DNA of 64,000 nt from Miltoncostaea oceani. Lineage in GTDB: Bacteria; Actinomycetota; Thermoleophilia; Miltoncostaeales; Miltoncostaeaceae. The DNA is taken from positions 2,741,001 to 2,805,000 of the forward strand of contig NZ_CP064356.1 of assembly GCF_018141545.1 (NCBI RefSeq), given 5' to 3'. A program made the position numbers and the translations under genes. Below are positions 6,447 to 61,412 of the stretch, piece by piece (position 1 is the stretch's first letter; each line of letters starts with the position of its first letter). The notes under the pieces were generated by a model. The model ran no database searches. It was not told the DNA's origin and saw nothing but the letters and a program-made list of their open reading frames with translations.

Positions 6447-6839
6447 TCAGGCCAGGGCGGGCGCGGAGGTGTGCGACTCGGCCTCGGCCTGGCGTTCGGC
6501 GACCAGCGCGCTCCACGCCTCGCAGAGCACGAGGAGGTCGGCGACGACCTCGCCCACGGTCACGGCCTCGACGGTGTCGGGGTCGAGACGGCGGAGCACG
6601 TACTCGTAGATGGCGCCGAGGTGGCGCGTGATGGAGCCGGCGGCCGGGTTCAGGCCCCGGTCGAGCTCCTCGACGATCGCGCGGACGCGGCCGACGAGGG
6701 CGGCGCCCTTCCCACGGTCCCCCTGGTCGAGGGCGTGCTGGGCCTGGCGGCCGAAGGAGACGGCGCCCTCGAAGAGCATGAGGACGAGGTCCTCCGGGGA
6801 GGCGGACTGGACCTGCTCGAGAGACGGAATGCTGTGCAT
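6447..6839 (-). CDS. fliS: FliS-family flagellar export chaperone (paralogue 1)
   Basis: A 130-residue all-helical protein of the FliS family: SPEDLVLMLFEGAVSF near residue 15, a central helix with VGRVRAIVEELDRGLN, and ITRHLGAIYEYVLRRL followed by a final helix with LVLCEAWSAL. FliS binds flagellin C-termini in the cytosol and prevents early polymerisation. It is the first gene of the operon running to fliI and is separated from the more canonical fliS at 10556-10972. Two copies in one organism may serve different substrates, since there are two flagellins. No sigma-28-like site was found upstream. Confidence 0.83.
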   Translation of the reverse strand: MHSIPSLEQVQSASPEDLVLMLFEGAVSFGRQAQHALDQGDRGKGAALVGRVRAIVEELDRGLNPAAGSITRHLGAIYEYVLRRLDPDTVEAVTVGEVVADLLVLCEAWSALVAERQAEAESHTSAPALA

Positions 6840-7032
6840 CCTGAAGGGACCTCGCGGTCGGGATTGGATGTTCGAGCGGGGTTCCGTCCCCTATGAGCCG
6901 GCGTCGTTCCCTGCCGGCCCTCTCTCTCTCGACTCCTGCCGCGCGATCCTTAACGGTCGGGTCACCGACGGGCGAGAAACCACCCATGCCGGCGCCCCCC
7001 GGGCGCCGTCGGCCGAGTGCACCCCGCGGCCG

Positions 7033-7440
7033 GGTCCAAGGGGCCCTCGGGGTCGGGTCCAAGTGGACCTCGGGGTCGGGTCCAAGTGTGGACCTCGGGG
7101 TCGACGCCAATTGACCAACCGGGGTCGACGGCCGAATGGGCCCCGGCGTCGACGCCAATTGGCCGATGAGTCGCCGGCCAAATGGACCTCGGCGCAAAGT
7201 CAATTGGCCGACGGGGTCGACGGCCGAATGGACCTCGGCGTCGACGCCAATTGGCCGATGAGTCGCCGGCCAAATGGACTTCGGCGCAACGTCAATTGGC
7301 CAATGAGTCGCCGGCCAAATGGACTTCGGCGCAACGTCAATTGGCCAATGAGTCGCCGGCCGAATGGACCTCGGGGTCGGCGCCATCGGCCGACCGGGCT
7401 CGACGGCCAATTGGACCTCACGCCGAGGTCCAATCGGACC
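7033..7440. repeat. 23-bp palindromic repeat array, degenerate, about 17 units
   Basis: This array fills the gap between fliS (start 6839) and glgP (stop 7515). Units begin near 7033, 7056, 7079, 7104, 7130, 7152, 7175, 7197, 7221, 7244, 7267, 7289, 7312, 7334, 7357, 7380, 7404 and 7427, so the step is 22-26 bp and mostly 23. Cores read GGTCCAAGTGGACC, GCCAATTGGCC, GGCCAAATGGACC and GGTCCAATCGGACC, all variants of GGTCCA-NN-TGGACC. Between 7244 and 7379 a 45-bp two-unit superrepeat is visible. Orientation (CCAAGTGG, spacers TCGGGGTCG) is the reverse complement of the 29.4-kb array. Positions 6840-7032 show nothing else recognisable. Confidence 0.9.
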
Positions 7441-7480
7441 ATGACGACACGGGGCCTCCGACGGCACCCCGGCCCCCCAG

Positions 7481-7506
7481 CCCCCGGGATCCCACGATCC
7501 CGGGGG
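7481..7506 (-). terminator. Hairpin terminator after glgP
   Basis: A perfect inverted repeat with 11-bp arms (CCCCCGGGATC, loop CCAC, GATCCCGGGGG) lies 8 bp beyond the glgP stop. It has no clear U tract on the minus strand, which is common in very GC-rich actinobacterial terminators. Confidence 0.7.
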
Positions 7507-7514
7507 GAGGGGGT

Positions 7515-10070
7515 TCAGTCGTTCGGCTCCCAGGTGATGAGGAAGTCCGGCTCGGGGCCGGCGCCGTCGGGGCGGAGGGGGACGACGCGGGCGGCGACGG
7601 CGAGGCGGCCGCTCTCCGCGGCCGGGACGACGGCGAGGAAGCGCTGCTCGTCACCCTGGGCGCCCTCGTGCACGCCGGCGACGACGCGGCGGGGGATCAG
7701 CCCCCCCTGCCCGTCGGCGAGGCCGGCGACGACCTCGACGCGGACGTCGTCGATCGACAGGTCGCCGAGGGTCGCGAGCACCTCGACGGCGACGTCGGTG
7801 CCGACGGGGACGGTCCCGTCGGCGCCGCGCAGGGAGCTCCTCACCCCCACCGTCGGCCACGCGGCCCTCATCCGCTCCCGCCAGGCGGCGAGGGCGCGGG
7901 CGCCCTTCCCCCCGTCGGCGCCGAGCGACACCGCCGCCCGGTGCGCGGGGATGTACGCCCGCTCGGCGTAGTCGCGCACCATCCGCCCCGTGCTGAACGC
8001 CCCGCCGAGGCGGCGGATCGACGCGGTCATCATCGTCGTCCACTCACGCGGCCGGCCGGAGGCGTCGCGTGCGTAGAACGCCGGCACCACCTCGCGCTCC
8101 AGGAGCGTGTAGAGCGCCTCCGCCTCGACGGCGTCGTTCTCCTCCGGGTCGTCGTACTGCTCGCCGCTGCCGATCGCCCACCCGCACTCCGGCGAGTAGC
8201 CCTCCGCCCACCAGCCGTCGAGCACCGACAGGTTCAGGCACCCGTTCACCGCGGCCTTCATCCCGCTGGTGCCGGACGCCTCCAGCGGACGACGCGGCAC
8301 GTTCAGCCACACGTCGGCGCCCTGCACGAGGTACCGGGCGACGTGCATGTCGTAGTCCTCGAGGAACACGATGCGGTCGCGCAGCCGCGGGCGCTGGCTC
8401 TCCTGCACCACCGTCCGCAGGAGGTCCTTGCCGGGGCCGTCCATCGGGTGGGCCTTGCCGGCGACGATGAACTGGACGGGGCGGCGCTCGTCGTCGAGCA
8501 GGCGGGCGAGGCGCTCCGGGTCGCGGAACAGCAGGTCCGCCCGCTTGTAGGTGGCGAACCGGCGGGCGAAGCAGATGGTGAGGGCGTCGGGACGCAGCGC
8601 GTCACCGGCGGCGCGGCTCGCGACGCGGCGCGACCCCTGACGGGCGAGCTGGGTGCGCAGGCGCTCCCGCGCGAACAGCACGAGGCGCTCGCGGCGCAGC
8701 TCGTGCACCCGCCACAGCTCCCCCGCCGGGATCGTGTCGGCCTTGTCCCACACCGCCGGGTCCTCCGGCCGCTCCCGCAGGCCGGGGCCGATGTAGCGGT
8801 CGAGCAGCTCGTGCATCTCACGGCTCAGCCAGCTCGGGGTGTGGATGCCGTTCGTGATGCTCGAGATCGGGACCTCGTCGATCGGCAGCTGGGGCCACAG
8901 CCCCCGCCACATGCGCCGCGACGTGTCGCCGTGGAGCGCCGCCACCCCGTTCGCGTACCCCGACGTCCGGAGGGCGAGGGGCGTCATGCCGAACGCCGAC
9001 TCCCCCTCGTCGGGGTGCGCCGCGAGCGCCGACAGCTCGTCCCACGACAGGCCGGCCGCCACCGCGAGGGGCTCCAGGTACGTCCGCGCCAGGGCCGGGT
9101 CGAACGTCTCGTTCCCGGCGGGCACGGGAGTGTGGGTCGTGAAGACCGTCGACCCGATGACCTGCTCCCGCGCCTCGACGGACGTCATCGCCGTCGCGGC
9201 GATCAGGGCCCGCATCCGCTCGAGCGCGAGCAGCGCCGAGTGGCCCTCGTTCATGTGGAAGACCGTCGGCTCCATCCCCGCCGCCGCCAGGGCGCGCACG
9301 CCGCCGACGCCGAGGAGGACCTCCTGGCGGATCCGCAGGTCGCGGTCCCCGCCGTAAAGGGTGCTCGTGATCAGCCGGGCCTCCGGCGAGTTGCCGTCGA
9401 TGTCGGCGTCGAGCAGCAGCAGCGGCACCCGGCCCACCTGGATGCGGCGCACCGCCGCGCGGACCGTCTCGTCGCCGATCGCGACCTCCAGCACCACCGG
9501 ACGGCCGTCGGCGCCGACGACGTCGGCGAGCGGCAGGTCGGACCAGTCGGTCGCCGGGTAGCGCTCGCGCTGGCCGCCGTCGGGCCCGAGGGCCTGGCGG
9601 AAGTAGCCGCCGCGGTACAGCAGACCGACGCCGACGAGGGGGACGCCGAGGTCCGACGCCGACTTCAGGTGGTCGCCGGCGAGGATGCCGAGGCCGCCGG
9701 AGTAGAGCGGGATGCCGGCGTCGAGGCCGAACTCGAGCGAGAAGTACGCGACGAGCATGCCCTCGGCGTCGGGGTTCGCCGGGACGAGCCAGCCGGGGTC
9801 GGAGGTGTAGGCGTCGAGGCGCCGCGCGACGCGCGCCACCATCGCCACGAAGCTCTCGTCGGCGGCCGCGGCGTCGAGCGCCTCCTGCGGCAGGCCGCGC
9901 AGCAACGCCACGGGGTTGTGCCCGAGCCGCTCCCACGCCTCCGGGTCGAGCCGCTGGAACAGGTCGCCCGCCTCCGGGCTCCACGATGACCAGACGTTGC
10001 GGGCGATCTCACCGAGCCAGGCGATGCGCTCCGGTAGCGCCGGGTGGACGTCGACCTCGTGGACCTTCAT
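7515..10070 (-). CDS. glgP: Alpha-glucan (glycogen/maltodextrin) phosphorylase GlgP
   Basis: An 851-residue cytoplasmic enzyme that releases glucose-1-phosphate from alpha-1,4-glucans using pyridoxal phosphate. The N-terminal region (about 1-110, ALPERIAWLGEIARNVWSSW) is the DUF3417-type segment of the actinobacterial GlgP subfamily; ILAGDHLKSASDLGVPLVGV follows near residue 130; the PLP-lysine motif EASGTSGMKAAVNG lies near residue 600. A CAGGAG ribosome binding site precedes ATG 10068-10070, and upstream in-frame sequence overlaps fliT-like coding, so this start is preferred. It is not a flagellar gene although it sits between two flagellar clusters. Confidence 0.95.
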   Translation of the reverse strand: MKVHEVDVHPALPERIAWLGEIARNVWSSWSPEAGDLFQRLDPEAWERLGHNPVALLRGLPQEALDAAAADESFVAMVARVARRLDAYTSDPGWLVPANPDAEGMLVAYFSLEFGLDAGIPLYSGGLGILAGDHLKSASDLGVPLVGVGLLYRGGYFRQALGPDGGQRERYPATDWSDLPLADVVGADGRPVVLEVAIGDETVRAAVRRIQVGRVPLLLLDADIDGNSPEARLITSTLYGGDRDLRIRQEVLLGVGGVRALAAAGMEPTVFHMNEGHSALLALERMRALIAATAMTSVEAREQVIGSTVFTTHTPVPAGNETFDPALARTYLEPLAVAAGLSWDELSALAAHPDEGESAFGMTPLALRTSGYANGVAALHGDTSRRMWRGLWPQLPIDEVPISSITNGIHTPSWLSREMHELLDRYIGPGLRERPEDPAVWDKADTIPAGELWRVHELRRERLVLFARERLRTQLARQGSRRVASRAAGDALRPDALTICFARRFATYKRADLLFRDPERLARLLDDERRPVQFIVAGKAHPMDGPGKDLLRTVVQESQRPRLRDRIVFLEDYDMHVARYLVQGADVWLNVPRRPLEASGTSGMKAAVNGCLNLSVLDGWWAEGYSPECGWAIGSGEQYDDPEENDAVEAEALYTLLEREVVPAFYARDASGRPREWTTMMTASIRRLGGAFSTGRMVRDYAERAYIPAHRAAVSLGADGGKGARALAAWRERMRAAWPTVGVRSSLRGADGTVPVGTDVAVEVLATLGDLSIDDVRVEVVAGLADGQGGLIPRRVVAGVHEGAQGDEQRFLAVVPAAESGRLAVAARVVPLRPDGAGPEPDFLITWEPND

Positions 10071-10133
10071 CTGGGATCTCCTGGGGCGTGGCAACAGGGC
10101 GCGCGGCGGCCCCCCGGCCCGCCGGCGATTCCC

Positions 10134-10221: not shown

Positions 10222-10566
10222 CTAGCGGGAGCGGTCGAGGTAGAGCGAGTGGCCCGTCGCCGGGGGCCGGTACCCCGCCAGTGCGGAGCGCCCGGCGCGC
10301 AGGGAGCCGAGCTCGCCGCGCAGCGCGTCGCGCGCCGCCGCGGCCCGCTGGGCCAGCTCCTCCTGGTCGCGGCGGAGCACGTCGACGAGGGCGCGCACCT
10401 CGGCGAGGTCGGCGGAGCCGAGGGGCGGCGCGTCGCCGGGGACGATGCGCGCCTGCAGCACACGGCGCTCCGCGTCGAGCACCGCGAGGCGCTCGAGGTC
10501 GGCCCCCGCGAGGGCCCGGGCCTGCGCGAGCTGCAGCTCGCGCAGGCGGCGGAGGTCAGCCAGCAA
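10222..10566 (-). CDS. Small coiled-coil protein in FliT position
   Basis: About 114 residues, Leu/Arg/Ala-rich and strongly helical (LADLRRLRELQLAQARALAG, then a second helix LAEVRALVDVLRRDQEELAQ). In many bacteria the gene after fliS encodes FliT, a short helical chaperone for the filament cap FliD. The size, helical character and place fit, but there is no diagnostic motif. The likely start is TTG at 10564-10566, overlapping the last codons of fliS; reading further upstream in this frame only shadows fliS. It could equally be an FlgN-like chaperone. Confidence 0.6.
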   Translation of the reverse strand: MLADLRRLRELQLAQARALAGADLERLAVLDAERRVLQARIVPGDAPPLGSADLAEVRALVDVLRRDQEELAQRAAAARDALRGELGSLRAGRSALAGYRPPATGHSLYLDRSR

Positions 10567-10972
10567 GGTTGACGCCGAGCACCGGGCCGCGGCGCTCCGA
10601 GGCGGGCCGGGCGGTCGCGGCGATCTGGACCCACGCCGAGCGCAGCTCCGACATGTGGCGGACGGCCTCGTCGATCTGGGCGGTGTCCTGCGACAGGCGG
10701 GCGGCGGTGAGGCGCTCACCGACGTACTCGTAGATGCTCGCCAGGTTCTGGGCGATGGGGCCCTGGGTCATGTCGAGCGTCACGCGCAGCTCCGTCACGA
10801 TCGCCTGGGCGCGGGTCAGCCGCATGCCGGCCTCGCCGACGTCGCCGCGAGCGAACGCGGCCTTCGACTGCGCCGAGAACCGCAGGAACCCGTCGTAGAG
10901 CATCACGACGAGCTGACCCGGGGTCGCCGTCTGGGCGGTGTGGTTCGTGTACTGCCGCAGCTCGGTCAGCAA
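10556..10972 (-). CDS. fliS: Flagellar export chaperone FliS (paralogue 2)
   Basis: A 138-residue flagellin chaperone. It carries TPGQLVVMLYDGFLRF (about 17-32), the family's LxxMLYDG motif, and IAQNLASIYEYVGERLTAA (about 72-90) with the NL..(I/L)Y.Y signature. It follows fliD, the usual place for fliS, and overlaps the small fliT-like gene. It is closer to textbook FliS than the copy at 6447-6839. Transcription probably starts at the sigma-28-like site upstream of flaG. Confidence 0.94.
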   Translation of the reverse strand: MLTELRQYTNHTAQTATPGQLVVMLYDGFLRFSAQSKAAFARGDVGEAGMRLTRAQAIVTELRVTLDMTQGPIAQNLASIYEYVGERLTAARLSQDTAQIDEAVRHMSELRSAWVQIAATARPASERRGPVLGVNLAG

Positions 10973-29391: not shown

Positions 29392-29741
29392 GGTCCACTT
29401 GGACCCGACGCCACACGGTCCACTTGGACCCGACCCCACGGTCCACTTGGACCCGACGCCACGGTCCACTTGGACGCGACCCCACGGTCCACTTGGACCC
29501 GACGCCATGGTCCACTTGGACCCGACGCCATGGTCCACTTGGACCCGACGCCATGGTCCACTTGGACCCGACGCCATGGTCCACTTGGACCCGACGCCAT
29601 GGTCCACTTGGACCCGACGCCATGGTCCACTTGGGACGATCATCCCCCGCGTGCGCTCCGGACGGATCCCCGGGATCACCGGTGCCGAGCGGGATCCGGG
29701 GCGAGGTCCAGATGGACCCACGCGCCTCGTCCGAATGGACC
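29392..29741. repeat. 23-bp palindromic repeat array, 11 regular units plus 2 outlying
   Basis: GGTCCACTTGGACC cores begin at 29392, 29417, 29440, 29463, 29486, 29509, 29532, 29555, 29578, 29601 and 29624. The step is 25 bp once, then exactly 23 bp nine times. The 9-bp spacer is CGACGCCAT in the right-hand units and CGACGCCAC or CGACCCCAC on the left. Two diverged cores, GGTCCAGATGGACC at 29705 and CGTCCGAATGGACC at 29728, are also 23 bp apart. The core is palindromic except for the central CT. The array lies between the 3' ends of two convergent genes. Because 23 is not a multiple of 3, reading frames through it are not real genes. Confidence 0.97.
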
Positions 29742-53383: not shown

Positions 53384-54934
53384 ATGTCGACCTCCGTCAC
53401 CCCCGGCGCGCCCGCGCCCGCGGGACCCGCGCCCGCGGCCCCCGTCGCCGCGGCGGGCGCCCCCGGCGCGGTCGTCACCGACCGCCCCCTCCCGGTCTCC
53501 CCCGGCCAGGCGCTGGCGGCACGCGTGCTCGCGGTGCAGGCGGGGATGGTCGAGCTGTCCCTCGCCGGCGGCACCGTGACCGCCGCGAGCGACCTGCCGC
53601 TCGAGCCGGGCCAGACGCTGCGCCTCGTGGTCGGGGAGGCCGGCGCCGACCGGGTGACGTTGCGCCTGCAGCCCGACGCGCCCGGTCCCGGCGGCTCCCC
53701 GGGCGCCGCCGCGGCGGCCGCCGCCGCCCGGGCGACCCCCGCGGGGGCCCTCGCCGCCGCGGGCATCCCCGCCGCCGCGGCCTCCGCCCTGCTCGCCGCC
53801 CTCGCCGAGGCGGGCGCCGCACCCGGCGACGGCGCGGCCGCCACCGCCCTCGCCACCCGCGCCGCCGCGGCGGGCGTGGGGACCCCGGCGACGGCGGCGG
53901 CCTTCGCCCGCCTCGACGCCGCCGGCCTCCCCACCACCCCCGCCTCCGTCGCCGGCCTCGCCCGACTCCTCGACGGCGCCCCCCTCGGCCGCGCCATCGC
54001 CACCCTCCTCGACGGCGCCGCCGCGGCAGCGGCGGCGGGAGGCCCTCCGACGGGTCCCGCCCCCGGTCCCGGTGGCCTCGCGTCCCCCGCCGCCGGGGGA
54101 TGGTCCAATTGGACCAACGGCGCGGGTCCAATTGGACCATCCCCCCAGAACCCCGTTCCCATGGGCGTTCCCGGGCCGATGTCCAATCGGGTCGACCCCG
54201 GTGGTCCATTTGGACCCCACCCCGCGACACCCGGCCCGGGGGGCCCGGCGACCCCCATCACCGCCGCGATCCTCGGGGCGCTCGCCGACCTGACGGAGGG
54301 CATCGGGACGGGGGCGACGTCGGGGAGCGCCGAGCTGCTGCGCCGTGCGATCTCCGACCTCGGGGGGAACCTCGAGGCGCGCCTCGCCGCCGGCGACCCA
54401 CCCGACGCCCCCCCGCTGCGGGCCCTGCTGCACGCCCTCGCCACCCACCCGGGAACCGACGCCGCCCTCGCCCGCTCGGCGACCGGCATCGCCGACGGGC
54501 TCGCCGCGCAGGGGCTGGCGGGCGCGACGATCCCCCCTCCCGGCGCCGCCGCACCCGACCCCGCCCAGCAGGGCGCCTACCTCCAGGTCCCCCTCCCCGG
54601 CGGCGGCACCGCCGAGGTGCGGGTCGCGCCCGACGGCGGCCACGACGCCGGCGACGGCCGTGAACGCCCCCGGCGCCTCGCCTTCCTGCTGCACCTGTCG
54701 GCGCTCGGACCCGTGATGATCGAGGCCACCGCCGGTGGCGGGGCGGTCGACGCCACCGTCCGCGTCGGCACCGACGAGGCCCGCCGCTTCCTCGCCCCCC
54801 TCGCCGGCGACCTCGCCGCGTCGCTGCGCCGGGCGGCGCCCGCCGCGTCGGTGAGCGTGGAGCGCCTCCCGGGCCCGGCCCCCGAGCGCCTCCTCGCCCC
54901 ACCGCCCCCCTCCGGCCTGGACCTGTCGGCGTGA
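53384..54934 (+). CDS. FliK-like hook-length control protein
   Basis: A 516-residue Pro/Ala/Gly-rich protein with a compact C-terminal domain (about 395-500; PLPGGGTAEVRVAPDGG, LAFLLHLSALGPVMIEATAG, VGTDEARRFLAPLAGDLAAS) that fits the FliK hook-length domain, where GPVxIE and LxxxLxxLxxxL are typical. The N-terminal two thirds form the long flexible ruler part. Residues about 239-278 are encoded by four units of the 23-bp repeat, reading as WSNWTNGAGPIGPSP and similar. It is divergent from flgF, and its stop overlaps the fhlB gene by 4 bp. FliK is otherwise absent from the window. Confidence 0.8.
   Translation: MSTSVTPGAPAPAGPAPAAPVAAAGAPGAVVTDRPLPVSPGQALAARVLAVQAGMVELSLAGGTVTAASDLPLEPGQTLRLVVGEAGADRVTLRLQPDAPGPGGSPGAAAAAAAARATPAGALAAAGIPAAAASALLAALAEAGAAPGDGAAATALATRAAAAGVGTPATAAAFARLDAAGLPTTPASVAGLARLLDGAPLGRAIATLLDGAAAAAAAGGPPTGPAPGPGGLASPAAGGWSNWTNGAGPIGPSPQNPVPMGVPGPMSNRVDPGGPFGPHPATPGPGGPATPITAAILGALADLTEGIGTGATSGSAELLRRAISDLGGNLEARLAAGDPPDAPPLRALLHALATHPGTDAALARSATGIADGLAAQGLAGATIPPPGAAAPDPAQQGAYLQVPLPGGGTAEVRVAPDGGHDAGDGRERPRRLAFLLHLSALGPVMIEATAGGGAVDATVRVGTDEARRFLAPLAGDLAASLRRAAPAASVSVERLPGPAPERLLAPPPPSGLDLSA
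54102..54216. repeat. 23-bp repeat units inside the fliK-like gene
   Basis: GGTCCAATTGGACC at 54102-54115 and 54125-54138 are perfect palindromes 23 bp apart. A second pair at 54180 (diverged) and 54203-54216 (GGTCCATTTGGACC) is also 23 bp apart. They lie in the low-complexity ruler region and keep the reading frame open. Confidence 0.92.
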
Positions 54935-61310: not shown

Positions 61311-61412
61311 GGTCCACTTGGGCCTCGCGCCATGGTCCACTTGGGCTCTCACGCCACCCGCTCGGGGCGGGGAGTGGTCCACTTGGACCCGTCGTCGTGG
61401 TCCACTTGGGCC
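61311..61412. repeat. Four 23-bp-phased repeat units after ogt
   Basis: GGTCCACTTGGGCC at 61311, GGTCCACTTGGGCT at 61334 (23 bp on), GGTCCACTTGGACC at 61376 and GGTCCACTTGGGCC at 61399 (23 bp on). The orientation (CCACTTGG) and the first spacer TCGCGCCAT match the 29.4-kb array. The stretch 61283-61502 otherwise holds nothing recognisable. Confidence 0.92.

Follow-up and report, generated by a model that had tools for sequence, protein, structure and literature searches.

In the genus that includes Miltoncostaea oceani, a family of short repeats is built from a 37-bp twin, two 14-bp near-palindromes set 23 bp apart, and the features kept across copies are the centre of the core, the 23-bp step and the pairing of the cores. 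Because this constant centre, constant step and obligatory pairing stand beside randomised spacers, we consider the element a putative DNA site for a sequence-specific dimeric protein, a reading to which we assign a probability of about 0.5. The family, in which site pairing and spacing rather than hairpin pairing appear to be kept, offers a compact and testable case.

The array between fliS and glgP

The window, by which we mean the whole stretch of 64,000 nt that was analysed, corresponds to G000:C1:2741001-2805000 in a genome of 4.54 Mb and three contigs. Near its left end, a minus-strand fliS-type gene (6447-6839; PF02561, 66.9 bits) is separated from the minus-strand glgP gene, encoding alpha-glucan phosphorylase (7515-10082, with its 3' end at 7515; PF00343 and PF11897), by an array that occupies positions 7010-7440 of the plus strand, 75 bp past the glgP stop and about 170 bp upstream of fliS. 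A second fliS-type gene occurs at 10556-10972 (124.7 bits, as compared with 66.9 for 6447-6839), such that the pair flanks glgP. Best-chain parsing resolved the array into 19 near-palindromic 14-bp cores with steps of 22-25 bp (mode 23), in agreement with the periodic array of about 18 cores at 22-26 bp steps that an earlier note had described as filling this gap. The repeat periods reported by Tandem Repeats Finder were 23, 24, 45, 92 and 137. The amplified 45-bp two-core block claimed in that note was recovered at 7257-7346 (plus strand), with copies at 7257-7301 and 7302-7346 that differ by one base, and a duplicated 92-bp block was found besides (7120-7301, plus strand; 90-nt copies at 7120-7209 and 7212-7301, 96% identical). 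At its right end the array contains both orientations, and positions 7404-7440 form a canonical opposed twin of the isolated type, the best model match of the array (36 bits); the array is a tandem expansion beside this one canonical twin. Directly after the glgP stop, and before the array, lies a GC-rich inverted repeat (7474-7513, minus strand; 18-nt arms, 89% complementary, 4-nt loop) that has no T run and is likely an ordinary terminator.

The array had been presented as the second of its kind; in fact the window contains four such loci (7010-7440, 29392-29741, 54102-54216 and 61311-61412) and the genome about 31. The locus at 29.4 kb comprises a homogeneous minus-strand array of 11 cores of the same family, downstream of a plus-strand gene (29392-29637), and an adjoining isolated twin on the plus strand that was detected by matrix scan (29705-29741). 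Two further minus-strand twins of the family occur 29 bp past a gene end at 61311-61412. That the 7.0-kb and 29.4-kb arrays carry the same repeat in opposite orientations was borne out, although exact reverse complementarity holds for the core GGTCCAAGTGGACC only: for the spacer TCGGGGTCG, 6-7 of 9 bases agree with the reverse-complemented 29.4-kb spacers. The 7.0-kb array was also correctly described as the less homogeneous of the two, its 29.4-kb counterpart having 95% matches. To call the 7.0-kb array older is therefore reasonable for the whole, though its 45- and 92-bp blocks look recent.

A paired unit with a 23-bp step

We trained a position weight matrix on the arrays and used it to scan about 1.0 Mb, drawn from four genomes of the genus and in part selected because known matches lay there; it detected 62 clusters containing 363 cores. 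No cluster was found in a reversed-sequence control, and the arrays are therefore far beyond chance. In the contiguous stretch at 2.5-2.9 Mb, nearly all strong cores (111/122) had a partner at 22-24 bp, and the 11 unpaired ones were no more than the 13 cores of the reversed control. Isolated pairs were spaced by exactly 23 bp in 64/70 cases; the cluster filter required steps of 20-26 bp, so that this result represents a sharp peak inside that range, and a spacing histogram made without the filter has the same peak. Because strong cores almost never occur alone and their isolated pairs keep this distance, the 37-bp twin is the minimal unit, and the constraint on spacing proposed earlier is supported. 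Spacers, in contrast to cores, are close to random: across loci they agree at only 4.6/9 positions (3.75 expected by chance), as compared with 20.7/28 for the cores. The longest tandem runs reach 25 cores, and no convincing motif emerged among the words shared by the linkers between twins. By eye, a higher-order repeat of roughly 195 bp, combining twin arrays with similar linkers, can be seen at G000:C1:2559604-2560180 (L028, L029).

The earlier note also proposed selection on palindromic symmetry, to be revealed by compensating changes within cores. We found that paired core positions change independently, with no excess of symmetric changes, which is the outcome that the note itself had named as a refutation: 43/269 cores were fully symmetric, as compared with 49.9 expected from re-pairing half-sites within loci and 44.3 under a global half-site shuffle, and in the 7010-7440 array the figure was 1/13 against an expected 1.3. 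Only 2/19 cores of this array reach 6/7 paired positions, and GGCCAAATGGACC, quoted as symmetric, matches at 4/7 pairs in the 14-bp frame. The third half-position gave p = 0.02 by global shuffle and was not significant by within-locus shuffle. In isolated twins, agreement within cores at this position was 82/124, versus 63 by across-element shuffle; swapping inner partners inside each twin, which controls for relatedness, gave p = 0.053, and the other five partner-swap comparisons gave p = 0.16-0.57. Orientation-normalised tests produced an apparent covariation that we rejected as an artefact: once the cores are oriented, one asymmetric class is merged with the other, and this alone creates the association. 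The case shows that so simple a step can mimic selection on symmetry when covariation is tested. Folding is strong (z -9.6), because of the palindromes themselves, and the absence of support for compensating changes weakens a stem-loop role.

Independent variation of paired positions fits half-sites on duplex DNA, unlike a selected hairpin, and the presence of twins inside a gene (see below) and in both orientations likewise fits a DNA site. Under the protein-site reading, two near-palindromic cores with CCAANTGG-like centres, 23 bp apart, would accommodate two dimers side by side, and the protein would read both cores on duplex DNA, with purifying selection keeping their centres and spacing. 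The 23-, 45- and 92-bp tandem arrays could then arise when the cores of one twin, or twins that adjoin each other, undergo slipped pairing or recombine unequally, and such arrays would persist where they do least harm, directly beyond the ends of genes. Speaking against a protein site, the fixed spacing could be inherited with a copied 37-bp unit.

Taxonomic range, turnover and gene context

A sequence-only model built from 62 twins matched at least 34-65 times per genome in 4/4 genomes of the genus (at most 67 candidates were scored in each), and 96/97 other genomes of the family or class had no match, the remaining one (G019) having a single weak match (E 0.0036). As judged from these model matches, the element is limited to the genus. 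The two-core pattern was found in two stretches, spaced by 22 or 24 bp, among 84,980 species genomes and again in two stretches, spaced by 22 or 24 bp, among viral contigs, all of which we read as chance; a second pattern had no stretch in the viral contigs. Rfam had no match in the window, and no paper on these repeats was found in the literature covered.

Within the genus, the glgP-fliS gap differs from genome to genome: G001 has four perfect 23-bp units there, oppositely oriented, in G002 four units lie past an additional gene, and G003 has none. Among comparable gaps of G000 and G003, the element is present in both genomes at one and in only one genome at four, and single sites are therefore dispensable, a point against the protein-site reading. 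The window also includes a case in which the twins are embedded in coding sequence: a plus-strand fliK-type gene (53384-54934; PF02120, Flg_hook, 24.1 bits, below the curated cut-off of 29.8) carries two twins, 78 bp apart, in its coding linker (54102-54216; L116). The same two twins occur 78 bp apart in the G003 fliK, with no indel relative to G000, and this matching place and matching distance make it likely that they are orthologous. Outside the cores, identity between the two genes is saturated (17/59), and the cores are no more alike (42/56) than those of unrelated copies; the fliK twins therefore show persistence only if the G000 and G003 copies share ancestry. The fliK linker of G001 has no twin. 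In G003, an 811-bp intergenic segment with twins, its right end lying within the repeat region, occurs at two distant places (G003:C1, about 1085900-1086708 and 2632978-2633788; L111 and L066) with 98.8% identity; it contains no called gene, and Rfam returned nothing above the gathering score.

With genes called solely by a simple, purpose-made codon-usage caller, we found loci preferentially in convergent gaps and near the 3' ends of genes. In contiguous stretches, the element was present in 9/40 convergent, 11/225 tandem and 2/117 divergent gaps (convergent versus rest, p = 1e-4; divergent versus rest, p = 0.03), the median distance being 75 bp where the adjoining gene end is a 3' end and 154 bp where it is a start. 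Divergent gaps are where regulators tend to bind, and their near-freedom from the element argues against a protein site; inspected by eye only, the genes flanking loci in divergent gaps included no obvious self-regulated DNA-binding gene.

This distribution over gap types is the published REP pattern (PMC3733652), and it favours the foremost alternative, a selfish or neutral REP/BIME-like repeat, in which the twin would be a miniature element expanded by slippage, copied by an enzyme (lost or not known) or by recombination, and harmless when inserted at gene ends. The rapid turnover of units in the glgP-fliS gap and the 811-bp segment point the same way. Paired palindromes, intragenic copies and same-site copies in orthologous genes are all known for REPs (PMC3733652); most of the anatomy is shared with them, and a selfish REP-like origin is possible. 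However, PF01797, the RAYT-type Y1 transposase domain present in 5/14 control genomes, is absent from G000, and the REP tags are not enriched: GTAG/CTAC occurs in 0.8% of 128 outer flanks versus 1.5% nearby and CGTC in 9.4% versus 9.9%, the only raised tetranucleotide being GACG (18.0% versus 9.5%). With the exception of the 811-bp segment, little is common to copies from different loci apart from their cores, whereas decay of a mobile unit would be expected to affect core and spacer equally. We do not file the element as a REP, since tag and RAYT gene are both absent, and we regard this alternative as a tentative one, appreciably less probable than the protein site.

Possible chromosome zones and known systems

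A special case of the protein-site reading is zone-specific chromosome organisation of the SlmA/Noc/MatP kind, in which a genus-specific protein would act on zone-confined, array-amplified pairs of dimer sites 23 bp apart, as a chromosome-organising system that arose within the genus. In G000, 128 model matches were obtained among 150 candidates scored, a limit that weighs on the zone argument, and grouping model and pattern matches gives about 31 loci, all on C1. None falls in the 1.66 Mb made up of C1 2.885-3.68 Mb, C2 and C3 (P about 8e-7 if loci were uniform, a null that overstates the significance, since local duplication clusters loci). Direct scans detected 13 loci in the 400 kb at 2.5-2.9 Mb and 4 in a terminus-proximal stretch of 200 kb (1 in the control in each case), as compared with none in 400 kb of origin-proximal DNA and none in 200 kb of C2, the scanned stretches having similar gap numbers. 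Taking the position of dnaA (1.1 kb in both G000 and G003) as the origin, all 23 loci of G003 lie 547-1117 kb and 732-984 kb from it on the two arms. These patterns favour zones. However, the zones of the two genomes overlap without being identical: some loci of G000 lie near the terminus and two on the right arm close to the origin, whereas G003 has no locus in either place. SlmA and matS, moreover, are described as single sites rather than arrays (PMC3116907). We consider this special case improbable. Near one twin locus of G000, a called ORF of 65 aa (C1:743145-743342; L074) consists almost entirely of a VPA repeat and is possibly a tandem repeat rather than a gene.

Least probable, and in our judgement quite unlikely, is that the elements act as RNA hairpins, either bidirectional terminators or mRNA-stabilising structures at gene ends: their location past gene 3' ends, the strong folding, and a 37-bp G003 twin (2631170-2631206) with complementary 14-bp cores that nearly fills a convergent gap speak for it, but no stem-loop with a T run was found at 6700-7700 on either strand, glgP has a separate hairpin directly after it, twins occur inside fliK, compensating changes are not in excess within cores and at most slightly so for the long hairpin, by a test that orienting inflates, and in 39/64 isolated twins the two cores point the same way.

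Compared with known systems, the element resembles intrinsic terminators between convergent genes in being palindromic and located at gene ends, and differs from them in having no T run, in being also intragenic and in that the symmetry of its cores is not maintained. Noc binding sites are dispersed palindromes with a zone bias, single sites with a known protein. The element is like these, and like SlmA and MatP sites (PMC3116907), in consisting of dispersed 12-14 bp palindromes that occur also within genes, with what may be a bias towards chromosome zones, but where those systems have single sites and known proteins, the sites here are always twins and often tandem arrays. Should a binding protein exist, REP-like repeats and protein-marked chromosome zones would be linked through this family. 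The closest known kind is REP/BIME, comprising the GTAG and CGTC super-families and including the dRS3 repeats of Neisseria and RPE-4/6 of Rickettsia (PMC3733652). In contrast to REP/BIME units of 20-40 bp, the element has 14-bp cores, a fixed 23-bp twin and long tandem runs, with neither tag nor RAYT gene and no hairpin covariation found. Both are short, many-copy, taxon-limited palindromes that occur in pairs or clusters, at gene ends and in convergent gaps, with some intragenic copies (PMC3733652); the element looks like a REP, and may behave like one.
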